Source: Gemmatimonadota bacterium (GTDB lineage Bacteria > Gemmatimonadota > Gemmatimonadetes > Gemmatimonadales > Gemmatimonadaceae). Taken from it: a stretch of DNA of 64,000 bases. Position 1 is the stretch's first letter. Each line of letters opens with the position of its first letter. The DNA lies in assembly GCA_028287305.1 (NCBI GenBank), contig JAQBPX010000037.1:1-64000 (forward strand), given 5' to 3'. This document shows positions 28,635-46,249 of the stretch, piece by piece. The notes under the pieces are model-generated. The model searched no databases and was not told the DNA's origin. It saw only the letters and a list, made by a program, of their open reading frames with translations. The translations under genes were made by a program, and so were the position numbers.

Positions 28635-28749
28635 CGTCACTCGGAAATGGGTGGCGCCTGAGGGGTGCACGACCGGGGCCACCGCCGCGCGACTGCCCCC
28701 GGCCGCCCGCTCGGTTCCGCGCGCGCCCCCGGCGCGATATCATCCCGCG

Positions 28750-30201: not shown

Positions 30202-32635
30202 GGCGCGCGAGCGCTCGCGCTACGGCGGCCTTCGTATCGGCGTGCGTGAGCGACTGCTGCACCGCGCCCAGGAATTCCCTGGACTTCGTGGCGTCCAGCG
30301 TTCGCGTGACCGCGGCAAGCGTCCACTGCCGCACCCATGCGCGCGAGTCATTCATGTTCGCCCGCAGCTGTACCATGGCGCGTGGATCCCCGCGCGCCGC
30401 GAAGGCGGCGAGGGTGTACGACGGACGCGACTGCTCACCCACCTGCGCCTGCAGCGGCGCCACGAACGTGCTGTCCCCGAGCCGGACCGCGGCCGCCATC
30501 GCGGCATTCGCGATCACGTCGCGATAGGAGGGAGTGCCGATTCCCGCGAGCACCAGCGCGTGCGCGCCGGCCGTGTCGAGGCGTGAGAGCACGGTCAGCG
30601 CCGCAGCGCGCACCTCATAGCTCCTGTCGTTCCGCCAGGCATCGCGCGCGGCCGCGAGCGCCGCGTCGCCACCCACGCGACCGAACGCAGTGATGGCCGC
30701 CTTCCGCACCTGGCTCGACGTGTCCCGCATCGCGCGGGCGAGCGCCGGGGTCGCGATCGCAGCGGGCAGCCCGCCGAGCGTGGTCGCCGCGAGCTGGCGC
30801 GTGAGGAAGTAGTCGGACTGCGTCGCCGCCTCGGCGATCGCCGCGGTCGCGGCCGCGTCGTTCGTGCGCGACGCAAGCTGCGTGATCACCCACTGCCGGT
30901 TCCAGAGGTTCGGCTCGGTGCGCAGCTGCGCCACGAGCTGCGGCGTGGGCTGCACGAAGGTGAGCTTCTTGAGGACCTGATTCTCCGGATCGAACACGAC
31001 TTGCGTGGGGCTCGTGCCGATGCCGTCGATCACGATGGTGTCGGTGCGCTGCGAGATCCAGGCCTTCTTCATCACCTCGCGGCCGTCGGCCCTCACCTTC
31101 ACGGACACCGGCATCCGGAACGCCTCAGGCACCGTGAAGCGGAGGCCCTCGGCGTTCGGCTTCATCGAGTCGCGCTGCGACTGCTCCACGATCATCGTCA
31201 CCCGCCTCGCGGCGGCATCGTACGACGACGTGACGGTGAACTCCGGGTAGCCGGCCGAGTACATCCACTCGTCGAAGAACCAGTCGAGGTTCTCGCCGGT
31301 GGCGTCGAGGAAGTCCTGTCGCAGGTCGTCGGTGACCGCCGTACCGAGCTGATGGTGCGTGAGGTAGCGATTCACCCCGGCCCAGAAGCGCTGCTCGCCC
31401 AGGTACTGCTTGAGCATCTGCAGCACCAGCGCGCCCTTGGGATAGATGTTGTTCGACTCCGCGGCAGCAAGCGGCATGCGCGCCTGCGCGTCGATCGCCA
31501 TGAACTGGCGGTACTCATCCAGGTAGTAGTCCTGCTCCATGTGCACGCCCTTCCGCTTCAGCCAGTACTGCCCGGGCATGTACTCGGCGAAGCCCTCGTT
31601 CAGCCACATGTTCGCGAAGTTGTTCGTCGTCACGTAGTCGCCGAACCACTGGTGCGCGAGCTCGTGCGCAATGAGGATGTACTGGAACCAGGGGCGGTCC
31701 TGATAGGCGTTCGCGTCGGGAATCCAGTCCACCAGCGTGGTGGCGCTCACGTTCTCCATGCCGCCGAAGAAGTCGGCGACCGTGGTCTGCGCGTATTTCT
31801 TCCACGGGTAGGCGACCCCCGTGAGCGTGGAGTACACGTCGATCATGTCCGGCGTGACGTTGAACAGCGCGCGCGCGATGCTGCTGTCCTGCCGGTAGAC
31901 GTAGTAGTCCACGGGGACGCCCTTCCACGAGTCGTGCACCTTCGCGAGGGGCGCGACGATGAGCGACGCGAGGTACGTCGCGCTCGGCGTGGGCTGGCTC
32001 CAGGTCACCGTGTGCGTGCCGTTGGCGTTCCTGCGGTCGGAGGCGAGCGCGCCATTCGCGATGGCGGTGAATCCCGCCGGCACGGTGGCCTCGATCTCCC
32101 ACGTCATCTTGTCGTTGGGAAAGTCATAGGTCGGGAACCAGAAGTGGTTGTCCGTATCCTCGCCCTGGCTCCAGAGCTGTCGCGGCGAGTGCGCGCGCGC
32201 GTCGATGAAGGTCAGCCCCCGTCCGTTGGTCACCTTGCCGTCGTAGGCGAGCGTGAAGCGCACGGACTCGCGAAAGGCGGCGGGCTTCGCCAGGAACACC
32301 ACGAGCGTGTCGCCGTGGTGCGCGGTGCGGAGCGTCGCCCCTGAGGCGCTCGTGGCACTCGTGACCGTGAGCTGCTCGCCCGCATCGAGCACCACCGAGT
32401 CGAGCGCGGGGCGCAGCGACAGGAGCGTGGTGCTCACCACTCCCTTGAACGACGTCGAATCCCAATCGAAGTCCCGGAGCGCGATCCGCTGGTGCACCAG
32501 GTCGTAGTCGTGCGAGCGCGTGTAGCTGTCGTTCACCACGCGCTGCAGGTTCTGGTTCTGGGCCGCGGCGGGCGTCGCGACGGCAGCGAGCGCCACGAGG
32601 GCGGCGAGGGCACGGGTCATCAGTCGAATGGGCAT
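30170..32635 (-). CDS. M1-family aminopeptidase with C-terminal HEAT repeats, exported
   Basis: An 821-residue secreted metallopeptidase. The start at 32635 (MPIRLMTRALAAL) gives a signal peptide ending ATPAAAQNQN. The gluzincin site is HELAHQWFGDYVT followed by NMWLNEGFAEYMP (HExxH-x18-E). The exopeptidase motif before it is GGMENVSA, in place of GAMEN. A middle beta domain follows, and the last 230 residues are alpha-helical HEAT-like repeats (LAATTLGGLPAAIATPALARA, VRKAAITAFGRVGGDAALAAA). It should trim peptides outside the cytoplasm. It lies 93 bp downstream of a histidine kinase gene. The 32-bp convergent overlap with the mannosyltransferase gene is unusual. Confidence 0.92.
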   Translation of the reverse strand: MPIRLMTRALAALVALAAVATPAAAQNQNLQRVVNDSYTRSHDYDLVHQRIALRDFDWDSTSFKGVVSTTLLSLRPALDSVVLDAGEQLTVTSATSASGATLRTAHHGDTLVVFLAKPAAFRESVRFTLAYDGKVTNGRGLTFIDARAHSPRQLWSQGEDTDNHFWFPTYDFPNDKMTWEIEATVPAGFTAIANGALASDRRNANGTHTVTWSQPTPSATYLASLIVAPLAKVHDSWKGVPVDYYVYRQDSSIARALFNVTPDMIDVYSTLTGVAYPWKKYAQTTVADFFGGMENVSATTLVDWIPDANAYQDRPWFQYILIAHELAHQWFGDYVTTNNFANMWLNEGFAEYMPGQYWLKRKGVHMEQDYYLDEYRQFMAIDAQARMPLAAAESNNIYPKGALVLQMLKQYLGEQRFWAGVNRYLTHHQLGTAVTDDLRQDFLDATGENLDWFFDEWMYSAGYPEFTVTSSYDAAARRVTMIVEQSQRDSMKPNAEGLRFTVPEAFRMPVSVKVRADGREVMKKAWISQRTDTIVIDGIGTSPTQVVFDPENQVLKKLTFVQPTPQLVAQLRTEPNLWNRQWVITQLASRTNDAAATAAIAEAATQSDYFLTRQLAATTLGGLPAAIATPALARAMRDTSSQVRKAAITAFGRVGGDAALAAARDAWRNDRSYEVRAAALTVLSRLDTAGAHALVLAGIGTPSYRDVIANAAMAAAVRLGDSTFVAPLQAQVGEQSRPSYTLAAFAARGDPRAMVQLRANMNDSRAWVRQWTLAAVTRTLDATKSREFLGAVQQSLTHADTKAAVARALARLSAAPSGSNP

Positions 32636-32728
32636 CGGGAATGGTGTGCAGGTGCGTCGCGGGAGGCTAGTCCCGGGGCTCATGGCGGGGATGGAGTCAC
32701 CGGACACGGCCAGCCGCTGCAGCCCGGG

Positions 32729-33862
32729 CTATCGCCGCGGCAGCCGCACCGTGAAGGTCGTGCCGTGGACCTCACTCGACTGTACGTCGACCGTTCCATG
32801 GTGGGCCGTGACGATCCGCTCCACGATGTAGAGCCCGAGACCCAGGCCCGCCATGGCTCCCTGCGCTGGCCGCGCCGCGGCGCCCGTACGCTTCAGGGGC
32901 TCGAACAGGCCGCGCATCTGGTCCCGGGAGATCACCGGCCCGCGGTTGTGCACCGAGATCACGACGTCCCGCTCTTCGCCGCGTACGTCGCACGACACCG
33001 GGGTCTTGTCGGACCCGTGCTCGAGCGCATTGCCCAGGAGGTTGGCCATCACCTGGCTGATCCGGCCGGCATCCCACTCGCCCGCCTGTTCCCCGCTGGT
33101 CGTCAACTCGATCGTGCGGCCGGGATGGGAGGCGAGGAGCTCATCCACCACGTCCCGCACGACGTTCTCCATCCGCATCGGGGCACGCTCGATCGGAATG
33201 CCCCCGCCCAGCCGGCTCCGCGTGAAGTCGAGGAGGTCGCCCACCATCAGGTTGATGCGGCTCGAGCTGCTCTCGATGCGCCGTACCAGCGTCAGGTGGG
33301 GCTCGGCGAGCTCACCCGTGTCGAGCATGAACTTCGAGGATGTGATGATGGCGCCAAGCGGGTTGCGCAGGTCATGGCCCAGGATCGCCAGGAACATCTC
33401 CTTGGAGTAATCGAGGTCTTGCGTATACCGCGTCACCGACTCGGCGAGCGACTGGTCGATCGCCTCGTTGAAGCGGGTGAGGTCCTCCAGGTGGGCCTCG
33501 GCGTCATCCACCTTCACCTTCGTCCACAGCCGGATGACGCTCGCCCGCAATGCCCGATATTCCGACACGATCTGCTCGATGGAGAAGCCACTGTCGGCCC
33601 GGTCAGCACCGTGCTTCTCGGCCGCGGTCTTCTCCTGCGCCTGGGGAGCCGGCCCTGCGTTCCCCTTCGACTTCTCGGCCTGCTCGGCATCGTTCTGGGG
33701 CGTTCGCAGGTCCGTGGCGATGCAGGAAAGCATTTCACTCGCGTGATCACGCAGCGCGGCGATGTCCATCTTTTCCGTCACCGGGCCCATCGTCCGTGCG
33801 AAGGCCTCCCATTCCAGGAGCACTGTTTCGCGATTGGCGTCGATGAAATCGGCGAGGCGCAT
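32729..33862 (-). CDS. Sensor histidine kinase with RsbRD-type N-terminal domain
   Basis: A 377-residue soluble histidine kinase. The start at 33862 (MRLADFIDANRETVLLEW) begins a helical RsbRD_N-like sensor domain (about 1-145), interrupted by a charged low-complexity linker (about 60-90). The HisKA domain carries the phosphoacceptor His163 in AILGHDLRNPLGAI. The HATPase domain shows QVMANLLGNALEHG (N box), ISVHNRGPV (variant G1) and AGLGLGLYIVERI. No membrane segment is present, so it senses a cytoplasmic signal. No response regulator is adjacent. It is divergent from the catalase gene across about 150 bp, which makes a stress-response role plausible but unproven. Confidence 0.88.
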   Translation of the reverse strand: MRLADFIDANRETVLLEWEAFARTMGPVTEKMDIAALRDHASEMLSCIATDLRTPQNDAEQAEKSKGNAGPAPQAQEKTAAEKHGADRADSGFSIEQIVSEYRALRASVIRLWTKVKVDDAEAHLEDLTRFNEAIDQSLAESVTRYTQDLDYSKEMFLAILGHDLRNPLGAIITSSKFMLDTGELAEPHLTLVRRIESSSSRINLMVGDLLDFTRSRLGGGIPIERAPMRMENVVRDVVDELLASHPGRTIELTTSGEQAGEWDAGRISQVMANLLGNALEHGSDKTPVSCDVRGEERDVVISVHNRGPVISRDQMRGLFEPLKRTGAAARPAQGAMAGLGLGLYIVERIVTAHHGTVDVQSSEVHGTTFTVRLPRR

Positions 33863-34012
33863 GCAACTCCGGCGCAGGTTGAGTTCGCTCGTGAGTCCCG
33901 GGCGTACGCACGCAGTGCATATGTCTGTCCAGCAATCCGCTGACGCCCGGTGCATCCGCGGCCCTGCGGCACGAGTATCGCCGAACGGGGAACACCCTCT
34001 TCCCTGGAAATC

Positions 34013-36427
34013 ATGCCCCGCAAGAAGACCGCTCCCGGCTCGGCGAAGGCTGCCAAGGCCGCCAAGGCCGCCAAGTCCGCCTCCCGCAACACGTCCAGCG
34101 CACCGGCACATCCGTCAGGCGCCGCTGCCGGTGACCGGCTGGCGGAGAAGGCGGCAGCCACGGAGCAACTCGTGGCGTCGGTGCCGTTCAACCCCAACAA
34201 GCCCGCGGAGTTCGGGCACGAGAATGCAGTCCAGCCGAGCGAGGGATTCGCCGAGCCGGCGCCTTCCCGCGACGTGGGCGCGAGCACCCTGAGCGAGGAC
34301 AACGACACCGGAAAGACCGGCGAGCCGGCGGCCGAGGGCGTGAATGCGAATGATGGACGCCTCGCCCGCGTGCGCGTGGACGACGGGGGCCAGCAGCTCA
34401 CCACCAACCAGGGCGTGGCGGTCGCCGACAACCAGCACTCCCTGAAGGCCGGGCTGCGCGGGCCGACGCTGCTCGAGGACTTCATCCTCCGCGAGAAGAT
34501 CACCCACTTCGACCACGAACGCATTCCCGAGCGCATCGTGCACGCGCGCGGCTCGGCCGCGCACGGGTTCTTCGAATGCTACAAGTCGCAGGAGCGGGTG
34601 ACACGCGCCGCGCCCTTCCAGGCGGCGGGCAAGCGCACGCCCGTCTTCGTTCGCTTCTCCACCGTCGCCGGCGAACGCGGCTCGGCTGACACCGCGCGCG
34701 ACGTTCGCGGGTTCGCGGTGAAGTTCTACACCGACGAGGGCAACTGGGACCTCGTCGGCAACAACATCCCGGTGTTCTTCATCCAGGATGCGATGAAGTT
34801 CCCGGACCTCGTGCATGCCGTGAAGCCCGAGCCACACAACGCGATGCCGCAGGCCGCGAGCGCGCACGATACCTTCTGGGACTTCGTGTCACTGATGCCC
34901 GAGTCCACCCACATGCTCATGTGGGCGATGTCCGATCGCGCCATTCCGCGCAGCTTCCGCACGATGCAGGGCTTCGGCGTGCACAGCTATCGCCTGGTCA
35001 ACGACAGCGGCGCCTCCGTCTTCGTGAAGTTCCACTGGACGCCACTGCAGGGCACCCACTCGCTGGTGTGGGACGAAGCCATGAAGATCAACGGCGCGGA
35101 CCCCGACTTTCATCGCCGCGACCTCTGGGAAGCCATCGAGGCCGGCGCGTATCCGGAGTGGGAGCTCGGCTTCCAGCTGTTCACCGAGGAGCAGGCCGAG
35201 GAGTTCAGCTTCGACATCCTCGACGCCACCAAGCTCATTCCCGAGGAGCTCGTGCCGGTGACGCCCGTGGGACGCATGGTGCTCGACCGCAACCCCGACA
35301 ACTTCTTCGCCGAAACGGAACAGGTGGCCTTCTGCACGGCCCACGTCGTTCCGGGAATCGACTTCTCCAACGATCCCCTGCTCGCCGGCCGCATCCATTC
35401 GTACGTGGACACCCAGATCTCGCGGCTCGGCGGGCCCAACTTTCACGAGATCCCGATCAACGCCTCGGTGGTGCCGATCCACAACAACCAGCGCGACGGC
35501 ATGCATCGCCAGGCGATCCCGCGCGGTCGCGTCTCGTACGAGCCCAACTCGCTCGGCGGCGGCTGCCCCTTCCAGGCAGGCGCGAGGGGATTCACGTCAT
35601 TCCCCGCCCCGGTGCAGGAGGACAAGGTGCGCGGCAACCCGGAGAAGTTCGCCGACCACTACACGCAGGCCACGCTGTTCTTCAACAGCCAGTCGCCGTG
35701 GGAGCAGGACCACATCGTCGCGGCCTTCCGCTTCGAGCTGAGCAAGCTCACCGTCCCGGCCATCCGGCGACGCATGGTCGCGTCGCTCCGCAACGTGGAC
35801 GAGACGCTCGCCGCGAGGGTGGCCGAGGGACTCGGCATGGAGCTGCCGGAGCCGCTGCCGCGCGTGCTCGAGCGACCGGCCACGCCGGAGGTTACGGAGT
35901 CGCCGGCGCTGTCGCTCACGGCGCGACCCGGCAATGCGGGCGTGCGCACGCGCAAGGTGGCGATCCTCGTCGCCAACGGCGTGGAGGCCGCGTCGCTGCT
36001 CGCCGTGCATGCCGCACTCACGGACGCCGGTGCGATGCCGCGCTTCGTCGGTCCGCGGCTCGGATCATACGCGGCGCTCGACGGCGAGATCATCGAGGCC
36101 GACGCGTCCATGGAGAACTCCGCGCCCGTGCTGTTCGACGCGCTGGTGCTGCCCGACGGCGACGCCGGCGTCGCCGCGCTGTTCACCGATGCGCACACGC
36201 TGGAATTCGTTACCAACCAGTATCGCCACGGCAAGTCCATCCTCGCGCTTGGCGCGTCGAAGATGCTGCTCGATCACGCCGGCGTTTCCACCACCATGCC
36301 GAACGGCGACGCCGATCCGGGCGTGCACGTGGCGAGCGGCACGGGCAAGGACGCGACGAAGCGGTTCCTGGCGGCCATTGCGAGGCACCGGCATCCGGAG
36401 CGGGAGAGCGATCCGCCCATGGTGTAG
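34013..36427 (+). CDS. katE: Large-subunit (HPII/KatE-type) catalase with C-terminal DJ-1/PfpI domain
   Basis: An 804-residue haem catalase. The catalytic His lies in [18 protein letters not shown], with Asn and Phe in the following [19 protein letters not shown] region. The proximal tyrosine lies in [17 protein letters not shown]. Length and the last 150 residues ([23 protein letters not shown]) show the flavodoxin-like DJ-1/PfpI domain of clade-2 large catalases. The N-terminal 80 residues are an extension rich in Ala-Lys repeats ([13 protein letters not shown]), resembling a histone H1-like tail. It degrades hydrogen peroxide in the cytoplasm. It is divergent from a soluble histidine kinase. 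ATG 34013 is chosen because codons upstream read through the intergenic region. Confidence 0.95.
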
Positions 36428-36514
36428 CACTCGACGGCGGTGAAGCTATTGCGCAGTGATGCAGAGCCCGGTAATGTTGCGCTCGCCTGATGACGACGCA
36501 CGGACGACCTCCGG

Positions 36515-37396
36515 ATGCTTCCGCCAATCACCTTGCCCGAACACCAGCACCACGAGCAGACGCTCACGCAGCTCTTCGCGAGTAACGGGGTCGTCGTGGG
36601 CGTTCGAGCGAACGACGCCTCGGTGCTGCGGAGACTTCGCGAGTGCCTGCCTCCGGACGTCACTCACGTCGCCTCCGAGGGCGCGGTTTCCTGGTTCTCG
36701 CTTCTTCGCGTGCCACGCGATTCTCGTGGGAGGGTTCGCTTCGAGCTGCGCGCCGGTGGGAGACTGCTCCATCGGGGATATCGCCTCTCGCCGCTCGTGC
36801 CAGAACTCGATTCGGCCATCCGTCTCGAGGTCGGGCTCAGGGCGGCGGATCGCCTGTTCGTGCATGCGGGTGTGGTGGGGTGGCGCGGCAATGCCATCGT
36901 GCTGCCCGGCGCAAGCGGTACCGGCAAGACCTCGCTGGTCTCCGCATTGCTGCGTGCCGGTGCCACGTACTACTCCGACGAGTATGCCCTGCTGGACGAG
37001 ACGGGCGCTGTGTACCCCTACGCGCGCCCGCTTTCAGTTCGCCAGGGGTCGGTCCGGCGCCTCCTGCGGCGCCCCGAGGCGGACCTTGGTGCGCAGGTCG
37101 GCGTCGCTCCACTGCCGGTGAAATTCATCGTTCACACCACGCACCATGCCGGAGGTCGGTGGGAACCGAGGCTCCTCCCGCCCGGCCGCAGTGCCCTCGC
37201 CATGTTCTCGCACACCCTCGCGGCCCGCGAGCGGTCGTCGTTCGCGCTGTCCGTCCTGTCCAGGGCGGCTCACGGAGCAATTTCCTGGGAAGGTGAGCGA
37301 GGGGACGCTGCGGCTACAGCCGCGGCGCTGCTCGACTACACCGACGCCCTGAATTCCTCCACTCCTTCTGTCCCAAGTCTGCGGAGCCTGACATGA
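36515..37396 (+). CDS. HPr-kinase-like P-loop protein of a PqqD/glycosyltransferase cassette
   Basis: A 293-residue protein related to HprK-type serine kinases. The Walker A segment is AIVLPGASGTGKTSLVSALL (about 128-147), followed by GATYYSDEYALLDETGAVYPY with the acidic Asp-Glu. Homologues of this reduced HprK type occur in lasso-peptide, capsule and other peptide-modification clusters, usually next to a PqqD domain protein. The N-terminal 115 residues are of unclear fold. The stop overlaps the PqqD-domain gene by 4 bp (ATGA). It probably phosphorylates a small protein or peptide, but the target is unknown. The first gene of the cassette, it is separated by 87 bp from catalase. Confidence 0.8.
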   Translation: MLPPITLPEHQHHEQTLTQLFASNGVVVGVRANDASVLRRLRECLPPDVTHVASEGAVSWFSLLRVPRDSRGRVRFELRAGGRLLHRGYRLSPLVPELDSAIRLEVGLRAADRLFVHAGVVGWRGNAIVLPGASGTGKTSLVSALLRAGATYYSDEYALLDETGAVYPYARPLSVRQGSVRRLLRRPEADLGAQVGVAPLPVKFIVHTTHHAGGRWEPRLLPPGRSALAMFSHTLAARERSSFALSVLSRAAHGAISWEGERGDAAATAAALLDYTDALNSSTPSVPSLRSLT

Positions 37397-37824
37397 ATCC
37401 AATCGCGCGTACCGACCGCCTGATCCGGCAGGACGTTGGTCAGGAGACCCTCGTGTACGATCGGGCGCAGGAGAGTGCTGCGTGCCTCAACGAACTCGCG
37501 AGCGCGGTCTGGCGCCACTGCGACGGACAGCAGGACATCGACCAGCTCGTTACCCTGGTCTCGGCCGAGGTCGCACTGCCCGAAGGTGCCGAGCCCCGCC
37601 TCGTCATCGAGCACGTGCTCAACGAGCTCGATGAGCACGACCTGATCGCGTGGACGGGTGAGGAGACCGCGACCGCAGGCGGGATGACCCGCCGCAGCGT
37701 GCTATTGAAGGTGGCAGCGCTCGCGCTGGCGCCGACGATCATTCGCATGGTCGCCCCGACGACCGCGAGCGCCGCTTCCGGCCCCCCCCTTCCCTCCGCC
37801 ACCGCCCCCGCTCCCTCCATCTGA
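37393..37824 (+). CDS. PqqD-domain protein with C-terminal twin-arginine/signal-like tail
   Basis: A 143-residue protein of two unlike parts. Residues 1-90 form a PqqD-like winged-helix (RiPP recognition element): LIRQDVGQETLVYDRAQESAACLNELASAVWRHCDG, then LVIEHVLNELDEHDLI. Residues 98-127 read MTRRSVLLKVAALALAP... to ASA, a twin-arginine-like pair followed by a hydrophobic segment and an Ala-x-Ala site. The last 16 residues are only Pro, Ser, Ala, Thr, Gly, Leu and Ile. An export-type signal at the C-terminus of a PqqD domain is odd, though similar tails occur in other PqqD family proteins. It may be a carrier or substrate rather than a pure chaperone. It overlaps the HprK-like gene and is followed after 6 bp by the glycosyltransferase. 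Confidence 0.8.
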   Translation: MNPIARTDRLIRQDVGQETLVYDRAQESAACLNELASAVWRHCDGQQDIDQLVTLVSAEVALPEGAEPRLVIEHVLNELDEHDLIAWTGEETATAGGMTRRSVLLKVAALALAPTIIRMVAPTTASAASGPPLPSATAPAPSI

Positions 37825-37830
37825 CCAGGG

Positions 37831-39174
37831 ATGATCGCGCACGGCGGATCCCATCACGGGTTCCGCCGTGCCGACAGCCGTTGCAGCCCCTTCATGTTCG
37901 GCGACATCTTCGTGCAGGTGGCGGCGTACCGCGACCCTGATCTCGGTCCTACCCTTCGGGACGCCGTGGCGCGGGCGACCGACCCCTCGCGGCTGCGCTT
38001 CTGCATTGCGTGGCAACATGGCGACGACGAGTCGTACGAGAGCGTATTCGGGGATCTCGCGGCCCGGGTGCGGTTGGACGTCCTCGACATCCCATACGAG
38101 GAAAGTCGCGGCGCATGCTGGGCGCGCCACCGCATCCAGCAGCGCTACGAAGGCGAGGCGTACACCCTGCAGATCGACTCGCATCACCGGTTCGTCGACG
38201 GCTGGGACGACCTCTGCATCGGGATGATCACGGCGCTCCAGGACGCCGGCATTCCAAAACCGCTCCTCACGACTTATCTCCCTTCGTTCGACCCCCTGAC
38301 GGACCCGGAGGGCCGGACGATGCGGGCGTTGGAGCTGTCACTGGATCGGTTCATTCCCGAGGGTGCCGTGTTCGTTCGTGGCGCTCCGATGCGGGACTGG
38401 GAGACCCGCTCACATCCCTCGCGGGGCCGATTCTACTCCGCCCACTTCGCGTTCACGATCGGTCAATTCGCCAGGGAAGTGCAGCACGACCCGAGCTACT
38501 ACTTCCACGGCGAGGAGATCAACATCACCGTGCGGGCCTTCACGCACGGCTACGACCTGTTCCATCCCCATCGCCTCGTAGCCTGGCACGAGTACACACG
38601 TCGTGGGCGCACCAAGCACTGGGATGATCACCGCCAGTGGTCCGGGCTGAACCTCTCGTCGCACGAGCACAATCGACGCTTGTTCGGGATGGACGAGTTC
38701 GAGAGCCAACCCGCACTCGTCAGCGAGGCCCAGGCCAGCCCGTTCGGCTTCGGCACGGTCCGGACGCTCGAGGACTACGAGCGCTATGCCGGAATCTGCT
38801 TCCAGCGCCGCGGCGTCACGACATCTGCCCTCGAGAACCGCGAGCCTTCGCCTGATGACAACCAGGACGTCTCATACGAGGTCTTCGCGGCCGGCTGCAT
38901 CCCCCGTTTCAAGCACTGCATCGACCTCGATCGACGGTGGGTTCCGCTGACCGACTACGACTTCTGGTGCGTGGCCTTCCACGACGCGGCGGGCAGGTCG
39001 CTCCATCGGCAGGACATCGACGAGGCCGAGATCGCCGCGCTTCAGGGGGATGCGGATGGGAAGTTTCAGCTCTGGCGCTCGTTCGACACGGAAATTCTCC
39101 CCGCATCGTGGAGCGTGTGGCCGCACAGCCGGAGTGCGGGGTGGTGCGCGCCCATCGTGGGGCATTTGCGGTGA
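37831..39174 (+). CDS. GlcNAc-transferase-type glycosyltransferase (GT60, Skp1-like)
   Basis: A 447-residue protein if started at 37831; the ATG at 37894 (MFGDIFVQVAAYRDPDL) fits the family N-terminus better and would give 426 residues. The glycosyltransferase (GlcNAc) family features are IFVQVAAYRDPDLGPTLRDA, FCIAWQHGDDESYES, YEESRGACWARHRIQQRYEGEAYTLQIDSHHRFVDGWDD (with Asp-Ser-His as the metal motif), and YYFHGEEINITVRAFTHGYDLFHP. In eukaryotes this family adds GlcNAc to hydroxyproline of Skp1; bacterial targets are unknown. The stop overlaps the next gene (GTGA). The neighbouring PqqD-tail protein, with its Ser/Thr/Pro end, is a possible acceptor. Confidence 0.83.
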   Translation: MIAHGGSHHGFRRADSRCSPFMFGDIFVQVAAYRDPDLGPTLRDAVARATDPSRLRFCIAWQHGDDESYESVFGDLAARVRLDVLDIPYEESRGACWARHRIQQRYEGEAYTLQIDSHHRFVDGWDDLCIGMITALQDAGIPKPLLTTYLPSFDPLTDPEGRTMRALELSLDRFIPEGAVFVRGAPMRDWETRSHPSRGRFYSAHFAFTIGQFAREVQHDPSYYFHGEEINITVRAFTHGYDLFHPHRLVAWHEYTRRGRTKHWDDHRQWSGLNLSSHEHNRRLFGMDEFESQPALVSEAQASPFGFGTVRTLEDYERYAGICFQRRGVTTSALENREPSPDDNQDVSYEVFAAGCIPRFKHCIDLDRRWVPLTDYDFWCVAFHDAAGRSLHRQDIDEAEIAALQGDADGKFQLWRSFDTEILPASWSVWPHSRSAGWCAPIVGHLR

Positions 39175-40862
39175 CCGACCTGACGGTGGTCACCGGCATC
39201 TGGGACCTTGGCCGCGACGGCGCCAGTCCAGCGTTCCGGCGGTCCTTCAGCGAGTACGAGCGTCACCTGGGCGAACTGCTCGACGCGGACTGTCCGATGA
39301 TCGTCTTTGGGGAGGCCTCACTCGAAGAGATGGTCCGCCAGCGACGGGGAACCCGGCCCACCGAATTTCGCCTCGCACCCGCGACGACATTCCGCGATCG
39401 TTTCGCCTTCTACGATCGGGTCCAGGCCATCCGGGCGGACGTACGATGGCGGGAGCAAGCGCCCTGGCTTGCAGCTTCTCCTCAAGCCAGCCTGGCGCTG
39501 TACAACCCGATGGTGATGTCGAAGATGTTCATGCTGCATGACGTCTCGCTCGCCAATCCGTTCCGGACGGCCCACTTCGCCTGGATCGACGGTGGGATCA
39601 CCCGCACGGTCGACCCCGCGTACTTCACGCGCGACCGGTGCCTGGAACGGGTGGTGTCCCTCCTCGACAACTTCCTTTTCGTGTCATTCCCGTATGAAGA
39701 CGGCACCGAGGTTCACGGGTTTGCCCGGAACGGCATGCGAGCGTACTGCGGCGATGACTCACGCTACGTCTGTCGCGGCGGCTTCTTCGGCGGACACATC
39801 GACCTGCTGAGTGAGGTCAACAGCCACTACTACGAGGTGCTGGAGAGCACCCTGCATGCGGGGCTCATGGGCACCGAGGAGAGTGTGTTCACCATCCTGA
39901 CCCACGAGGAGCCGCAGCTGTACGACCGGTTCGCGCTCAGGGAAGCGCACCGCGGCCTGCTGACGCCTTTTTTCGAGCACGTGAAGACGTTGCCGATTCA
40001 CCGTGGAGTGTCGAGCAGCTACCCCGCGCCGAATACAACGAGCGTCGACCCGGACACTGCCACCCTTGACGGCTACGTGGTGACCTTCAACGCGCCGCAA
40101 CAGCTCCGCGCTGTTCTCGCGAGCTGGGCGCCGTCGACCGTGTTCGATGCGCTGTACCTCCTGGATCACAGCACCGATCCGGCGGCGCAGCGGGAGAATC
40201 GGGAGATCGCCGAAGTCCACGGCGCCGCGGTGTTGCATCATCCCCTCGGGAACGGGGGCGTCTGCGGCGGACGACAGTTCGTCGCTGAGCACTTCGATGG
40301 CACGACGACCGACTACTGCCTCTACATCGAAGACGACATGTTCCTGAACCCCCCGGGCGACGCCGGCCTCTGTGCGAACGGCTTTCGCCGATCAGTATCG
40401 GACATACGCCGCCTGCTGCTCCGCATCCTCGCCGAGGAAGGATTCGACTTCCTCAAGCTGTCGTTCACCGAGGTCTTCGGCGATCACAAATCGCAGTTTG
40501 CGTGGTACCACCTGCCAGAGGAGATCAGGGCGCGTCGGTGGCGGGAGAAGCCCATGTTGCGACCCGGGCACGTGGACCCCGCGTGCCCGCGTGCCCAGTT
40601 CGGCCGGATCGGCACGGTCGACGGGGTCTCGTACATCGATGGCGAAGTCTACTACTCCAACTGGCCGCACATCGTGTCCAGGGCGGGAAACCGGACGATG
40701 TTCCTGGAGCCGGCGCTCCTCGAGCCGTATGAGCAAGTCTGGATGGCAGAGATGTACCAGCGCACCATCGACGGGCACCTGCATCCTGCCGTTCTCCTGG
40801 CTTCGCTGATCACGCACGACCGCTCCGCCCACTATCCCTCAGAGCTGAGACGGGAGCACTGA
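39171..40862 (+). CDS. Two-domain glycosyltransferase: HtrL/YibB-like domain fused to GT-A domain
   Basis: A 563-residue protein starting at GTG 39171, overlapping the GT60 stop by 4 bp. Residues about 1-270 match the HtrL/YibB family: TVVTGIWDLGRDGASPAFRR, CPMIVFGE, ALYNPMVMSKMFMLHDV, TAHFAWIDGGITRTV and CRGGFFGGHIDLL. Residues about 300-560 look like a GT-A glycosyltransferase: YVVTFNAPQQLRAVLASW, EIAEVHGAAVLHHPLGNGGVCGGRQF, and TDYCLYIEDDMFLNPPGDA with a DDM acidic metal motif. The fusion suggests that two transfer steps are done by one polypeptide. It is the last gene of the cassette; a 170-bp spacer follows. Donor and acceptor are unknown. Confidence 0.78.
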   Translation: MTDLTVVTGIWDLGRDGASPAFRRSFSEYERHLGELLDADCPMIVFGEASLEEMVRQRRGTRPTEFRLAPATTFRDRFAFYDRVQAIRADVRWREQAPWLAASPQASLALYNPMVMSKMFMLHDVSLANPFRTAHFAWIDGGITRTVDPAYFTRDRCLERVVSLLDNFLFVSFPYEDGTEVHGFARNGMRAYCGDDSRYVCRGGFFGGHIDLLSEVNSHYYEVLESTLHAGLMGTEESVFTILTHEEPQLYDRFALREAHRGLLTPFFEHVKTLPIHRGVSSSYPAPNTTSVDPDTATLDGYVVTFNAPQQLRAVLASWAPSTVFDALYLLDHSTDPAAQRENREIAEVHGAAVLHHPLGNGGVCGGRQFVAEHFDGTTTDYCLYIEDDMFLNPPGDAGLCANGFRRSVSDIRRLLLRILAEEGFDFLKLSFTEVFGDHKSQFAWYHLPEEIRARRWREKPMLRPGHVDPACPRAQFGRIGTVDGVSYIDGEVYYSNWPHIVSRAGNRTMFLEPALLEPYEQVWMAEMYQRTIDGHLHPAVLLASLITHDRSAHYPSELRREH

Positions 40863-40977
40863 GCTCGACGAGGTTCGTCGGGCGTGCGCGAGGTCGATCC
40901 CCCGCTGGCGCAGGAAAAATTCCCTACACGGCCGGGGCAGACCCCGGACAGATTCTCGTTGGCTAAGGACTATCCTC

Positions 40978-41008
40978 ATGATCGGCGGGGAATTTCCTCG
41001 CCGATCAT
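40978..41008. promoter_or_regulatory. 31-bp palindrome upstream of the ScdA-domain gene
   Basis: ATGATCGGCG and CGCCGATCAT arms flank a GGGGAATTTCCT centre. Only two base pairs of the arms mismatch. It ends 24 bp before the ATG at 41033 and has no uridine run, so it is a better candidate for an operator or 5'-leader hairpin than a terminator. A shorter inverted repeat, AGGACTATCCT, lies at 40966-40976. The regulator is unknown. Confidence 0.5.
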
Positions 41009-41032
41009 TCGCCCTTGCAGCGAGGCTTGCGC

Positions 41033-41308
41033 ATGGACTCCACTGTTGGTAGCGAGAATTCCTGGATCACGACGGACAGCACGGTGGACGAAGTGACGGC
41101 GAACTCCCTTGCCGCGCGCTCCATCCTGTCCGGATTCAACATCGATGTGTGCTGCGGCGGGCCGGCCACCATTGCTGACGCGTCGGCGAAGGCCCGGGTG
41201 GACCCCGTGGTGTTGCTGGCCCTCCTGGCGGCGGCACCGCGCGACGAGTCCCCGAAAGCGACCGCTTCGCTCCGCCCCGTCACCTCGTGCAAATGCGGGA
41301 GCCACTGA
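41033..41308 (+). CDS. ScdA/RIC N-terminal-domain (DUF542) protein
   Basis: A 91-residue protein with the DUF542 domain found at the N-terminus of the di-iron repair protein ScdA/YtfE/RIC. The signature is DEVTANSLAARSILSGFNIDVCCGGPATIADASA with its CC pair. A further CKC occurs near the C-terminus (TSCKCGSH). The hemerythrin-like iron domain of RIC is absent, so it is a stand-alone domain. Such proteins are linked to nitric oxide or oxidative stress on iron-sulfur centres. It starts after a palindrome and overlaps the next gene by one base (TGATG), so the two are coupled. Confidence 0.83.
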   Translation: MDSTVGSENSWITTDSTVDEVTANSLAARSILSGFNIDVCCGGPATIADASAKARVDPVVLLALLAAAPRDESPKATASLRPVTSCKCGSH

Positions 41309-41736
41309 TGGAGTGGTTCGTGAAGGCCTTCCTCAAGGCGAGCCTGGCGTGGCTCGCGCTCGGCGTCACGCTGGGCGTCGCGATGGCGGCGTACCCACTC
41401 TGGACACTCCATCGCTCGGCACACATGCACATGGTGCTGCTCGGATTCGTCACCATGATGATCTATGGCGTGGCCTATCACGTGATCCCGCGGTTCACCG
41501 GTCACCCGCTGCACAGCCGGCGCGCTGCCGGCGTGCACTGGTGGCTGTCGAACGTCGGGCTCGCGCTGATGGTGCTGGGCTTCGTGACGCGCGCCTACGG
41601 CGCCGGCATCGGTACGGTGGCGCTGGCAACGGGCGGTACGCTCTCAGCGCTGGGCGCCTACGTCTTCGTGTACCTCATCTGGCGCACGGTGGATGGTCCC
41701 GTTCACGTTCCCGTGGTCGCCATCGCCTCCAGGTAG
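41308..41736 (+). CDS. Small COX1-like (haem-copper oxidase subunit I-like) membrane protein
   Basis: A 142-residue protein with four predicted helices. The segment HRSAHMHMVLLGFVTMMIYGVAYHVIPRFTGHPLHS resembles helix 2 and the following loop of haem-copper oxidase/NO reductase subunit I. Its conserved histidines could bind haem, but the rest of the roughly 450-residue subunit is missing. Genes of this type often accompany ScdA-domain genes, consistent with a nitric oxide or redox role. The last 34 bp overlap the end of the convergent nitronate monooxygenase-like gene. It is a compact protein rather than an obvious truncation, since its terminus is clean. Confidence 0.75.
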   Translation: MEWFVKAFLKASLAWLALGVTLGVAMAAYPLWTLHRSAHMHMVLLGFVTMMIYGVAYHVIPRFTGHPLHSRRAAGVHWWLSNVGLALMVLGFVTRAYGAGIGTVALATGGTLSALGAYVFVYLIWRTVDGPVHVPVVAIASR

Positions 41737-43136
41737 TTCACCACGTCGGCCGCCGAATAGTGCAGGCGGCCGCGCGCGAAGGCGCCCATCGCCACCAGGT
41801 CGTCGCCACTCGTGAGGAGCGGGAGCTCGAGACCTTCCTCGCGAGACTGGCCCTGGCCGATGTTTGCCGTGAGCCCGTTGCACAGGCAGCGACGACCCAC
41901 CGTATCGGCGATGTCGCCACCCTTCGCCGCGTACTGGTCGGCTGGCTCGGCGGCACAACGGTAGCCGACGGTGCCACCCGGGGTGCGATACGCCGTGCGA
42001 AGGTAGCCGAGGTCGCAGTTGCGCTCGCGCCGGTCGTCCTGGCTTTCCAGGTCTCCCAGCTCCACCACCTTGAACGGATAGCCCGTGGGCGACGCGCGCG
42101 GATCGGTGCGCACCTTCACGCGGCCCGAGGCGATGCCGGCGAGCACCTGGCGCTTGAGCTCGGGGGTGAATCCGGATTCGTCGCAATAGGCGAAGAGCGT
42201 TCCCACCTGGATGCCCGCCGCGCCAACCGCGAGCGCGTCACGAAGTCCTTGTGGCGTGCCGGTGCCACCAGCGAGCCAGAATGGAAGGCCGAGGTCCCTG
42301 ATCTTCTCGAGGTCCACCACGTCGCGCTCGCCGTAGAGCGGCTCGCCGCTGGCAGAGAACCGGGGCTCGCCGCGGGGCGGCGCGTTGTGTCCCCCTGCGG
42401 TGGGCCCTTCGACCACGAATCCGTCCACGCTGCCCGTCGCCTTCCGGGCGAGGGTAGTCGCCAGCGAGCTGGCGGACACGATCGGGACGAAGCATGGACG
42501 CACGAGCCCGGGCTGGGAGCCGCGGAGATGATCGGCAGGATCGAACGCGATTTCGTCGGCTCGCGCGCCCGGGGCTCCCTCGACGTCGAGCTTCAGGCGC
42601 GCAACCCGGTGCTCCGCGAAGGCATCGAGCGCGCCCGGAATCTCGCGCGGAATGCCTGCGCCCATCAGCACGTAGTCCACGCCCGCGAGCATGGCGCCGT
42701 AGAGCGACAGCAGGTTGGGCAGCTGCACCTTCGTCAGCAGGTTCATCCCCACTGCCCCGTCGTGTCCCTCCTTCGCCAGCCACACCTCCACGAAGCTTCC
42801 CATCATGGTAGCCTGCTGGCGCGCGATGTTCACTCGCTGCCGGAACATCGGCAGCAGCTTGTACGGACGTTGGCCGCGCTCACCCGGTTCCAGGAAGTAT
42901 CGGTGTACCAGCTGCTCGCCCACCCCCGGTATCGGGAACGCGGCCATCGCGCGTCGCATGTGCCCGCCCTCGTCACCGTCCTGGAGCCGGCGAATCATCA
43001 CCGTGTCGATCGCGGTGCCGGAGACGACTCCCAGGTGCCCAAGGCGCGATACTGCGCGTGCCAGCTGCCAGCCGGACACGCCCACGCCCATGCCGCCCTG
43101 GATGATGCGAGGGTGCCGTTGATTGTGCATGCTCAC
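41703..43136 (-). CDS. Nitronate monooxygenase-like FMN protein
   Basis: A 477-residue TIM-barrel flavoprotein of the 2-nitropropane dioxygenase/nitronate monooxygenase family. The N-terminal segment PRIIQGGMGVGVSGWQLARAVSRLG binds FMN. GFVVEGPTAGGHNAPPRGE, LPFWLAGGTGTPQGLRDALAVGAAGIQVGTLFAYCDESG and a C-terminal cysteine-containing region GRRCLCNGLTANIGQG follow. It is longer than classical nitronate monooxygenases (about 330-380 residues), with an insertion near residues 60-110. The function could be oxidation of a nitronate or another enoyl-type substrate. It convergently overlaps the COX1-like gene by 34 bp. PhyH lies 86 bp upstream on the same strand. Confidence 0.8.
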   Translation of the reverse strand: MSMHNQRHPRIIQGGMGVGVSGWQLARAVSRLGHLGVVSGTAIDTVMIRRLQDGDEGGHMRRAMAAFPIPGVGEQLVHRYFLEPGERGQRPYKLLPMFRQRVNIARQQATMMGSFVEVWLAKEGHDGAVGMNLLTKVQLPNLLSLYGAMLAGVDYVLMGAGIPREIPGALDAFAEHRVARLKLDVEGAPGARADEIAFDPADHLRGSQPGLVRPCFVPIVSASSLATTLARKATGSVDGFVVEGPTAGGHNAPPRGEPRFSASGEPLYGERDVVDLEKIRDLGLPFWLAGGTGTPQGLRDALAVGAAGIQVGTLFAYCDESGFTPELKRQVLAGIASGRVKVRTDPRASPTGYPFKVVELGDLESQDDRRERNCDLGYLRTAYRTPGGTVGYRCAAEPADQYAAKGGDIADTVGRRCLCNGLTANIGQGQSREEGLELPLLTSGDDLVAMGAFARGRLHYSAADVVNYLEAMATTGT

Positions 43137-43222
43137 ATGATGAAATCATGCTGCCACGCACCGTGTCGGGCCCCTCACGGATCAGCGCCGGAATACTCCC
43201 GTCAGGAGTTCCCCTGCTTCCC

Positions 43223-44062
43223 TCACGCCTCGCCCATCATGAGCCCCTCGATGCTGTGCCCCTGTACGATGGGCTCCAGCGTCTCCACCACTCGGCAGGT
43301 GAGGTGCGCCTTCAACTCGTCCGGCAGCGCCTCGTAGTACGCGCGCGTGAACTGCAGGTCGTGTCGCTCGGCGTTGTTCGCATCCGATGAATCCGCGCCC
43401 AGCACGAGCACCGGGCGCGACTTCTGGGAGTGATTGGCGGTGCCGCGGTGTATCGTGAGCGCCGAGCGTGCGGACATGTCACCCAGGCTGGGCAACTTCC
43501 GCTGCGCACGTGCCTCGTACCGCTCATACAGCGCCTTCGGCGGAAACATCTCGTGCTCGAATCCCTCGGGCAGGTCCCACTGCGTACCGGGCGCGATCTC
43601 GAAGGGACCCATGTCCTCCGTCGTGTCCACCCCGGTGAGGTTGAACGCGAGCGAGTTCAGGCGACGACCGACCAGGGTCGCCGGAGGCGACGGAAAGTCG
43701 CGGTGCCACGGCTGGTTCACCGCGCCAGGTCCTGGCACGTCGAAGCCGATCTCGACGATCTTGTAGTCGGGTCCGAGCACCGCCGTGCACACCGCCACCA
43801 CCCACGGGTGCGTCGCGAGGTCCACGAAGCCACGCATCCGCTCGGGATGGATCTCCACGTAATAGCGCTTGGGGCCGCGCCCCACGGCGCCGCCGGGTCG
43901 CGCGAGCGCCTCCACGAACAGCTCGTCGATGTCCTCGCGCATCCGCTCGGCCCACTCGCGGGGAAACGCAGCCTTGTGACCGATGATGCCGTCGCCGTAG
44001 ATGCCACCCATGATGGCGGCGGTGTCGTAGGCGGCCGCGATCCCTGCACTCGTGACGGTCAT
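43223..44062 (-). CDS. Phytanoyl-CoA dioxygenase (PhyH) family protein
   Basis: A 279-residue Fe(II)/2-oxoglutarate oxygenase of the PhyH family. The iron triad is visible as WHRDF (His and Asp) and the later His in LTIHRGTANHSQKSRPVLVLG. An arginine (RPVLV) for 2-oxoglutarate follows. The start at 44062 overlaps the stop of the aldose epimerase gene (ATGA), so it is the last gene of the leftward sugar operon. The substrate is probably a small molecule derived from that pathway, not necessarily a CoA ester; this is inference. No signal peptide is seen. Confidence 0.85.
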   Translation of the reverse strand: MTVTSAGIAAAYDTAAIMGGIYGDGIIGHKAAFPREWAERMREDIDELFVEALARPGGAVGRGPKRYYVEIHPERMRGFVDLATHPWVVAVCTAVLGPDYKIVEIGFDVPGPGAVNQPWHRDFPSPPATLVGRRLNSLAFNLTGVDTTEDMGPFEIAPGTQWDLPEGFEHEMFPPKALYERYEARAQRKLPSLGDMSARSALTIHRGTANHSQKSRPVLVLGADSSDANNAERHDLQFTRAYYEALPDELKAHLTCRVVETLEPIVQGHSIEGLMMGEA

Positions 44063-45183
44063 TGCTCCTCCTGCCGACTGCGCGCGTCGCGGTCGGTGCC
44101 GAAGGTGAAGGTGGTGCGGCTGGCGTACTCATCGCCGGGGGCAAGCACGACGGAGGGAAACGACGGATGGTTCGGCGAGTCCGGATAGTGCTGGGTCTCC
44201 AGGCAGAACCCGCTGCGGTGCGCGTATCGCTGGCCTCCACGCCCCACGATGCTGCCATCCAGGAAGTTGCCGGAATAGAACTGGAGTCCCGGCTGGTCGG
44301 TGTGCACGCTGAGCGTCCGTCCGCTCACCGGATCGCAGGCGCGCGCGGCGTGCCGAAGTCCGTGCTCGATCGCCCCGGAGAGCACGAAGTTGTGGTCGTA
44401 GCCGCCCGCCAGTGCGAGCTGCTCGTCGGCGTCCCCGACTCGCTCGCCGATGGGGTGCGCACGCAGGAAGTCGAACGCTGAGCCGTGCACGGGCGCCATT
44501 GCACCCGTGGGAATCAACCCCGCGCCCACCGGAGAGTAATGCTCGGCGACGATGGCCAGTTCGTGCGACAGGATGTCGGTCGCGCGGGGGCCGGCGAGGT
44601 TGAAGTAGCTGTGCTGCGTGAGGTTCACCACCGTCGGCTGGTCGCAGGTTGCATGATAGTCCACTACGAGCGTGCCGCCTGCCGAGAGCAGGTACGTCAC
44701 GCTCGCCTGCAGGGTGCCCGGGTAGCCCGCATCGCCATCGGGGCTGGCCAGCTCGAGGCGGATGGCAGCGTCAGCGGCTGTCGTCAGCACGTGCCCGGTC
44801 CAGAGCTGCTTGTCGAACCCGACGAAGCCGCCGTGCAGGTGGTTGGGCCCGTCGTTCGTGTCGAGCTGATGCCCCACTCCGTCCAGCGTGAACCGGCCGC
44901 CGGCGATGCGGTTGGCGTGCCGGCCGATCACGGCTCCGAAGTACGGCGAGTGCCCGACGTAGCCGGCGAGCGCATCATGACCCAGCACCACGCTCTCACG
45001 GTGTCCGTCGCGATCGGGAGCGAGGATGTCGGTGATGATTGCGCCGTAGCTGATCGCGCGCACCTCGATGGCACCGGCCCGCAGCGTGAACTCCTCCACG
45101 ATTCGTCCATCGGGCATCACCCCATACGGGCGGCGCTGCACGCTTGCGCGCGCCGCGGGCGCAGCCTCAGGGGCACTCGCCAC
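44059..45183 (-). CDS. galM: Aldose 1-epimerase (galactose mutarotase)
   Basis: A 374-residue mutarotase that interconverts alpha and beta anomers of aldohexoses or pentoses. Substrate-binding and catalytic features are GRHANRIAGGRFTLDGVGHQLDTNDGPNHLHGG, the catalytic His in NLTQHSYFNLAG, and the catalytic Glu near the C-terminus in SGFCLETQHYPDSPNHPSFPS. The N-terminal 20 residues are Ala-rich but do not form a clear signal. It overlaps GH43 at its start by 17 bp and PhyH at its stop by 4 bp. It fits the processing of sugars released by the GH43 and GH2 enzymes. Confidence 0.92.
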   Translation of the reverse strand: MASAPEAAPAARASVQRRPYGVMPDGRIVEEFTLRAGAIEVRAISYGAIITDILAPDRDGHRESVVLGHDALAGYVGHSPYFGAVIGRHANRIAGGRFTLDGVGHQLDTNDGPNHLHGGFVGFDKQLWTGHVLTTAADAAIRLELASPDGDAGYPGTLQASVTYLLSAGGTLVVDYHATCDQPTVVNLTQHSYFNLAGPRATDILSHELAIVAEHYSPVGAGLIPTGAMAPVHGSAFDFLRAHPIGERVGDADEQLALAGGYDHNFVLSGAIEHGLRHAARACDPVSGRTLSVHTDQPGLQFYSGNFLDGSIVGRGGQRYAHRSGFCLETQHYPDSPNHPSFPSVVLAPGDEYASRTTFTFGTDRDARSRQEEQ

Positions 45184-46249
45184 TGGGCCTCGCCACCTTC
45201 TGCAGCGTGGGGGTCGGATCGCCGAACACGGGCGTGCCGCTCGCGCTCCACGTGAACTTCTGCATGCGCACCACCCGATCCCAGCCGGGAGCCTCGGCGA
45301 CCTTGGAGTGATAGACGATCCAGCTCTCGCTGTTGTCCTCCGACGTCGTGAAGCTCGCGTGTCCCACGCCGAACACGCCCGTGTTGCCGGTGAACACCGG
45401 ACCGGACTTCGTCCAGTTCGCCGCGTTGAGCGGGTCGGCAGCAGCCGACTGCAGGCGCAGCTGCCCGAGCCGGTATTCCTTGAGCCACGACTCGCGCGTG
45501 GAATAGAGCAGGAACACGTCGCTTCCGTGCTGCAGGAACTCGGGTCCTTCCTGCAGGTCGAGCTCAGTTCCCTTCTCCCAGCTCTCCGTGGGCGCGCTCA
45601 ACAGCACCCGGTTGGCGGAGATCGTGTACGGGTTCTCCATCGGCGCGATGTAGAGCATCTGCGGCGTACGATCGGTCGTCGCGTTCTTCGCCCACCCCGA
45701 CCACACCGCATATCGCCTGCTGCCCACCTGCGCGGTGGTGAGGTCGATCGCCCAGCGGTTGCCCTGTCCGGTGCCCACGCTGTCGCCCGTGTAGAGCATT
45801 CCCTTGTCCACGTACGGACCCATCGCGTCGCTTCCGGCCGACTGCAGCACGCCCGCATGCTGCGTGAGGTACGGCGGCCCGGACTCACCGCCGGCGTAGT
45901 ACACGTACCAGCGCCCGTCGATGTAGTGGAGCTCGGGCGCCCAGATATTCGTGTGATTCCACCCCGTGGCGGGCGCCGACCAGATCTGCGTCGGCGCCGC
46001 CACGACCACGTCCGTCAGCTTGCTGGACTTGGAGATCCAGATGCCGTCGTTGCGTGACTGGATGAAGTAGTACATCCCGTCCTGCCGCACGACCCAGGGG
46101 TCGGCACCGACGGCAACGGGATTCGTGAAGGTGCACTGCGCGGGCACCACCGGGTCGGAGGAGGAGGCACTGCCCCCTCCCCCGCAGCTCAACGCCGTGG
46201 CCGCCGAGAAGAGGCAGGCCGCGCCCAGCAGCTGTCCTGCAGTTCTCAT
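45167..46249 (-). CDS. GH43-family glycoside hydrolase lipoprotein (arabinanase-like)
   Basis: A 360-residue exported lipoprotein. The ATG at 46249 (MRTAGQLLGAACLF) yields a signal ending in lipobox ALSC, followed by a Gly/Ser linker. The five-bladed propeller features of GH43 are FTNPVAVGADPWVVRQDGMYY (catalytic base Asp), NIWAPELHYIDGRWYVYYAG, and ELDLQEGPEFLQHG (catalytic acid Glu). The likely substrates are arabinan or arabinose/xylose side chains, but galactose-active members exist. It lies 4 bp downstream of susD and overlaps galM by 17 bp. An alternative start 27 bp upstream would overlap susD. Confidence 0.85.
   Translation of the reverse strand: MRTAGQLLGAACLFSAATALSCGGGGSASSSDPVVPAQCTFTNPVAVGADPWVVRQDGMYYFIQSRNDGIWISKSSKLTDVVVAAPTQIWSAPATGWNHTNIWAPELHYIDGRWYVYYAGGESGPPYLTQHAGVLQSAGSDAMGPYVDKGMLYTGDSVGTGQGNRWAIDLTTAQVGSRRYAVWSGWAKNATTDRTPQMLYIAPMENPYTISANRVLLSAPTESWEKGTELDLQEGPEFLQHGSDVFLLYSTRESWLKEYRLGQLRLQSAAADPLNAANWTKSGPVFTGNTGVFGVGHASFTTSEDNSESWIVYHSKVAEAPGWDRVVRMQKFTWSASGTPVFGDPTPTLQKVARPSGECP

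Follow-up and report, generated by a model that had tools for sequence, protein, structure and literature searches.

Gene content of the locus

The window (the whole stretch of 64,000 nucleotides analysed here) carries a cassette of four open reading frames (ORFs), all on the forward strand, at the coordinates that the first-pass annotation had given them. The family calls made there for the four products were likewise upheld. The genes and the features discussed below are:

36515..37396, + strand: HprK-like P-loop kinase, 293 aa (motifs FVHAGVV, GASGTGKT and SDEY; TIGR04352 E=5e-16, below the cut-off)
37393..37824, + strand: PqqD-domain protein, 143 aa, with an internal RR-hydrophobic signal-like segment and a Ser/Thr/Pro/Ala tail, putative precursor and substrate (PF05402 above the cut-off; alignment; comparison with 17 family members)
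37690..37695, + strand: twin-arginine codons (residues 100-101), with which the Tat-like segment begins (RR in 18/18; TIGR01409 over the cut-off in relative L076)
37777..37779, + strand: Ser129, the conserved Ser/Thr at Pro+7, candidate kinase target (Ser/Thr in 17/18, background 0.19)
37774..37821, + strand: hypervariable C-terminal tail ASGPPLPSATAPAPSI, candidate O-glycosylation region (S+T+P 0.56 versus 0.10-0.50 in 14 tails without glycosyltransferases)
37831..39174, start perhaps 37894, + strand: GT60 (PF11397), polypeptide GlcNAc-transferase-type enzyme (PF11397 E=4e-71; PHROG 24687 glycosyltransferase E=3.7e-148)
38176..38184, + strand: DSH motif of GT60 (D116-S117-H118), candidate metal-binding DxH (invariant in nine GT60s; part of the pattern that retrieved viral GT60s)
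39171..40862, + strand: fusion protein of 563 aa, N-terminal domain HtrL/YibB-like and C-terminal domain GT-A-like (PF09612 E=2e-12, residues 3-146; 58 phage relatives)
40329..40337, + strand: EDD motif (E387-D389) in the C-terminal GT-A-like domain of HtrL/GT-A (invariant in four relatives)

Three tight junctions had been described, and two of them stand: the HprK/PqqD and GT60/HtrL gene pairs overlap by 4 bp, also in the relatives of the cassette. The third, a 6-bp spacing between PqqD and GT60, is uncertain. GT60 of the relatives begins at the residue equal to Met22 of the window protein (37894), so the gap is 6 bp or perhaps 69 bp. The reading frame of HtrL/GT-A starts at a GTG within a longer mechanical ORF.

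No small separate precursor gene was seen among the cassette ORFs. Polymerase, flippase and sugar-nucleotide genes were not recognised beside the window cassette, the flanks of its relatives being annotated only in part. A reading of the cassette as a capsule or LPS operon was dropped, as no such genes were seen in it. At 28612-30201, 6 kb upstream, lies a gene for a PMT protein O-mannosyltransferase (PF02366, PF16192); an exported PqqD tail could also receive O-mannose from PMT outside the cell, and no other tie between PMT and the cassette was found. A PhyH-family dioxygenase (PF05721) is encoded on the - strand at 43223-44062, 2.4 kb beyond the cassette, and no link to the cassette was found. 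A dependence on hydroxyproline, which GT60 of protists can require, was dropped, since this PhyH gene is on the opposite strand and outside the cassette.

Family assignment of the four proteins

The kinase scores 58.6 bits against TIGR04352 (HprK-related kinase A), for which the cut-off is 200. Judged by its sequence, it is HprK-like and no member of that family. The FVHAG, P-loop and SD.YA motifs are conserved in an alignment of seven HprK-like proteins. The second protein matches PF05402 (PqqD/RRE) at 28.8 bits (cut-off 23.4) and remains below the cut-off of 35 for TIGR04353 (HPr-rel-A system PqqD) with 17.5 bits. GT60 is assigned to PF11397 at 240.7 bits (cut-off 21), which predicts transfer of GlcNAc to a polypeptide. 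For HtrL/GT-A, the match to PF09612 (HtrL_YibB; 47.6 bits, cut-off 24.1) covers residues 3-146 only, and the YibB equivalog model TIGR02192 gives 51.2 bits against a cut-off of 264.9. Pfam yielded no match beyond residues 3-146 of the 563; the C-terminal half is called GT-A-like from sequence features.

Neither an asparagine-synthetase-like cyclase nor a transglutaminase-like protease was recognised among the ORFs of 30000-46000, read by eye. Sequence searches of the PDB gave no useful match. Structure prediction from two-row alignments reached a mean pLDDT of 39 for GT60 and 34 for HtrL/GT-A, with no usable fold.

Recurrence of the cassette in Gemmatimonadota

The bacterial chromosomes surveyed were those of Gemmatimonadota; the other collections comprised plasmids and viral contigs. 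When 249 Gemmatimonadota genomes were searched for GT60, only the window's genome and G073 gave a match. A profile search of 179 genomes of the same family found GT60 in four, namely G000 (the window's genome), G073, G307 and G319, and profile searches with PqqD and HtrL/GT-A gave strong full-length matches in the same four of about 178 genomes. The order HprK, PqqD, GT60, HtrL/GT-A is present in 4/4: the window, G073 (L011), MAG REEB316/G307 (L012) and G319 (L059). The first-pass annotation had proposed looking for this order elsewhere, and its repetition in three further genomes of the family means that it is not due to chance. The plasmid collection held no relatives of PqqD or HtrL/GT-A.

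All three relatives (L011, L012, L059) have one extra upstream gene. In L011 and L012 its product is a two-domain fusion, of which one domain is NTP_transf_5 (PF14907), and L059 carries a homologue. The second domain of the L012 protein shows 43% identity over 302 aa to a phage ORF located between GT60 and HtrL/GT-A. The NTP_transf_5 fusion has no good match in the window's genome.

Incomplete HtrL/GT-A copies occur in G211, where the contig ends, and in G175 and G024, where they look like remnants. C-terminal HtrL/GT-A remnants without other cassette genes occur at L073 4975-5358 and L074 9611-9799, which suggests that the cassette was lost in some relatives. The cassette might also be non-functional phage-type DNA that landed beside an HprK/PqqD pair: G175 and G024 hold remnants without the rest of the cassette, and relatives of GT60 and HtrL/GT-A abound in viral contigs. 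However, across three genera the cassette frames are intact at 55-66% identity and the 4-bp overlaps are kept, so that we regard this origin as very improbable.

The kinase and PqqD module

A phylum-wide search recovered PqqD proteins of the same layout without nearby glycosyltransferases. The shared layout consists of a PqqD domain, RR, a hydrophobic stretch, [AST]P, a small-residue stretch and a tail. An HprK-like gene lies near every intact tailed PqqD protein, whatever the tail, and these pairs mostly occur without glycosyltransferases. The first-pass annotation had envisaged one four-gene system, to be given up if most PqqD homologues lacked the glycosyltransferases; since this is what the phylum shows, the cassette is not one invariant system. 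Instead, it is a first module (HprK-like kinase and PqqD protein) joined to a second (GT60 and HtrL/GT-A). With its fixed Ser/Thr and constant HprK-like partner, the family of PqqD-RR-tail proteins has the look of a so far undescribed platform for exporting modified peptides.

In three Gemmatimonadota genomes, HprK-like and/or PqqD-RR-tail genes are located between rpoC and rpsL/rpsG, or beside rpsL/rpsG, an odd site for a peptide module:

L045 8541-10031: HprK-like/PqqD-RR-tail genes by rpoC, rpsL/rpsG
L046 9794-10354: the same
L048 1395-3858: the same

Small separate RR peptides, one of them with a Cys-rich tail, are encoded near a stand-alone PqqD gene at L052 10460-10711 and L054 8113-8361; together with PqqD they are a split form of the PqqD-RR-tail protein. 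At L078 2-733, the PqqD-RR-tail protein has a long, folded-looking tail that ends in a serine run.

Signal-like segment and tail of the PqqD protein

The RR pair is invariant in the 18 related PqqD-tail proteins. The Tat signal model TIGR01409 exceeds its cut-off in relative L076 and gives no match for the PqqD protein of the window. TatC is encoded in the window's genome. A Ser/Thr stands exactly at Pro+7 in 17 of the 18 proteins, counted from the first [AST]P past the helix; the binomial p of about 8e-12 (background 0.19) overstates the case because the proteins are related and this anchor was picked after the sequences had been viewed.

Beyond Pro+7, the tails do not align with one another. 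Tails from loci without glycosyltransferases include Cys-rich (G225, G240, G188, G080, G246), Asn/Gln-rich (G241, G257) and Lys-rich (G167) examples. The four tails encoded beside the glycosyltransferases measure 16, 27, 54 and 90 residues, contain 4, 10, 24 and 37 Ser/Thr, respectively, and lack Cys. In S+T+P fraction they span 0.52-0.69 and the remaining 14 tails 0.10-0.50 (one-sided MWU p=0.0017); this test counts few independent events because the four loci are related. A tail of similar make-up without glycosyltransferases, ASAVPRPSSI in L044, reaches 0.50. The tail of the window, shorter than those of the other three cassette loci and with just 4 Ser/Thr, would alone be weak evidence; the longest of the four, of 90 residues, reads as a putative mucin-like domain. 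A conserved PqqD-RR front followed by a hypervariable tail is the predicted leader-and-core layout of a RiPP precursor, and the PqqD protein thus looks like a precursor and putative substrate.

The glycosyltransferase pair in phages and plasmids

The GT60 profile retrieved at least 596 relatives from viral contigs, and the locus analysis covers the best 80 of these, with mechanical longest ORFs as gene calls. The window GT60 is about 50% identical to these 80 and about 40% identical to plasmid-borne bacterial ones. A quick tree places the four Gemmatimonadaceae GT60s together in a single clade (support 100), which joins the viral proteins and is separated from the plasmid ones (support 98); as the viral set was picked for likeness and the root is unknown, the tree carries no direction of transfer. 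An HtrL relative is present in 72 of the 80 loci, and 58 of these 72 align to the HtrL/GT-A fusion over at least 450 aa with a median identity of 39%. When HtrL/GT-A was the query instead, 46 viral loci were retrieved, and GT60 lies within 5 kb in 43 of these. PqqD and HprK were absent from all viral loci examined in both scans (for GT60, the best 80 of at least 596). The second module is therefore a phage-linked pair.

Thr/Pro-repeat ORFs, recognised by a segment of 30 residues of which at least 60% are S/T/P and which includes at least 6 T and 5 P, concentrate upstream of GT60 in these best 80 of at least 596 relatives. They occur in 28/78 loci at position -1, 20/75 at -2 and 10/66 at -3; the frequency is 0/80 at +1 and a few percent elsewhere. 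The enrichment within three genes of GT60 over more distant positions has a Fisher p of 2.7e-6, in a set of loci that includes near-copies. Only 34 of the 80 loci have a Thr/Pro-rich ORF within three genes. A phage baseplate-type gene, scanned as a control, yielded only 12 loci, a number too small to serve the purpose, and several of these are themselves GT60 loci. Thr/Pro repeats also lie near GT60 in a contractile-injection-type locus on an Azospirillum plasmid, and a Klebsiella plasmid has them immediately upstream of GT60.

That the pair might travel with capsule or LPS genes had been raised at the outset; it was found in phages, often beside Thr/Pro-rich genes. The two glycosyltransferases could still build part of an envelope polysaccharide or LOS, with HprK and PqqD serving another process and their adjacency due to a shared island. 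The HtrL_YibB family has otherwise been linked with LOS loci (PMC4172580), some lasso clusters combine HprK, PqqD, nucleotidyltransferase and EpsH-type glycosyltransferase genes (PMC7533575), and HprK and PqqD pairs occur without glycosyltransferases. However, the window cassette is not accompanied by recognised polymerase, flippase or sugar-nucleotide genes (partial annotation of the relatives' flanks applies), the phage pair is linked to Thr/Pro-repeat ORFs, and the make-up of the tail goes with glycosyltransferase presence. We consider an envelope role unlikely.

In type VI secretion (T6SS) loci of Burkholderiaceae, the neighbour of GT60 is a fimbrial-fold protein and not Thr/Pro repeats. 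At L006 7942-10353 and L009 7857-10377, GT60 follows a fimbrial-fold (PF00419) gene, and RHS, PAAR and VgrG genes adjoin it; the fimbrial-fold product is possibly a glycosylated surface or secreted protein. Such neighbours show that other GT60 genes adjoin other candidate substrates, and PqqD domains usually work in trans, binding the leader as a partner protein (B1 proteins, PMC7533575). The glycosyltransferases of the cassette might then modify an unlinked protein, with PqqD as the presenting RRE only and its Ser/Thr/Pro tail as a flexible display linker. Against this, the cassette shows no small separate precursor gene, and the tail is mucin-like in 4/4 loci behind a conserved PqqD-RR part, the pattern of a leader plus core. 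An unlinked substrate thus seems distinctly improbable.

Proposed mechanism

Protist GT60 enzymes initiate mucin-type O-glycosylation, and fused glycosyltransferases often take over from there (PMC8724618). GT60 enzymes also start Hyp-linked O-glycosylation, as in the Skp1 Hyp glycan (PMC8724618, PMC6939170). In some lasso peptides, Ser is phosphorylated by HprK-like kinases, and PqqD proteins bind the leaders (PMC7533575).

Our preferred reading, which we hold to be reasonably probable, is that the product of the cassette is a peptide tail that is O-glycosylated and exported: the glycosyltransferase pair acts on the PqqD tail in the cytoplasm, followed by Tat export. The first-pass annotation had suggested that the PqqD protein brings or is the substrate and that the two enzymes decorate it or a linked peptide. 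The PqqD protein does look like the substrate, and the Ser/Thr/Pro-rich tails in all four glycosyltransferase-bearing loci, together with the phage GT60/HtrL pairs beside Thr/Pro repeats, independently indicate that the two enzymes decorate sequences of this kind. We infer the enzymatic steps, the sugar, the sites, docking and export as follows. The PqqD protein would be substrate and guide in one chain, in which the PqqD domain (RRE fold) docks the modifying enzymes and the C-terminal tail serves as acceptor. GT60 would add the first sugar (GlcNAc in known members) to Ser/Thr of the tail, and the fused HtrL/GT-A protein would then lengthen the glycan. The HprK-like kinase may phosphorylate the conserved Ser/Thr where the tail starts. 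Export of the modified chain would follow by the Tat pathway via its internal RR-hydrophobic segment, and the tail would be released or displayed outside. The Tat pathway transports folded and cofactor-loaded proteins.

More tentatively, and with doubts about the whole, we propose a bacterial mucin-type O-glycosylation. The precursor would bring its own RRE and an internal Tat signal, and its mucin-like core would be HprK-phosphorylated at a fixed Ser/Thr and O-glycosylated by a phage-shared glycosyltransferase pair. Paired with tails of another kind (Cys-rich, Asn/Gln-rich), the PqqD-RR-tail/HprK module would serve more generally as a platform from which modified peptides are exported.

Relation to known systems

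By analogy, the cassette would work like mucin-type O-glycosylation, and its layout resembles that of a RiPP precursor to which an RRE has been fused. PF11397 is common to the window GT60 and the polypeptide alpha-GlcNAc-transferases of this family (Dictyostelium Gnt1 and the Golgi enzyme, the T. cruzi enzyme). The known enzymes place the first GlcNAc onto Hyp or Ser/Thr of mucin-like regions, and fused glycosyltransferases often follow (PMC8724618). In contrast, the window enzyme, whose activity is predicted, is bacterial and has an HtrL/GT-A fusion and an RRE protein as partners, and the cassette contains no prolyl hydroxylase. The phage neighbourhoods combine the same two proteins, GT60 (PHROG 24687) and HtrL/GT-A, at about 50% and 39% identity; they are often beside Thr/Pro-rich ORFs, have no HprK/PqqD, and their acceptor candidates are large proteins.

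Our searches of the open-access literature turned up no report connecting PqqD, HprK and glycosyltransferases, and none on GT60 in phages or on this PqqD-RR-tail family; an earlier description is possible. GT60 mucin-type O-glycosylation has been described in protists, and a bacterial or phage form with its acceptor next door would make origin and specificity testable in simple hosts. If the proposal is true, Thr/Pro repeats are the predicted acceptor class for PHROG 24687 and the fused HtrL/GT-A in hundreds of phage contigs.

Paeninodin-type lasso clusters unite an HprK-like kinase and PqqD (RRE) in one locus, as the cassette does, whereas no transglutaminase-like protease or asparagine-synthetase-like cyclase was recognised among the ORFs of 30000-46000 and no separate precursor gene in the cassette. 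The HprK-related kinase A/PqqD_rel_X system (TIGR04352, TIGR04353) likewise places an HprK-like kinase beside a PqqD protein. The window proteins score far under both cut-offs, and the window PqqD adds the RR-hydrophobic segment and the tail. Lastly, the three relatives of the cassette carry a PF14907-type nucleotidyltransferase, as does that system.
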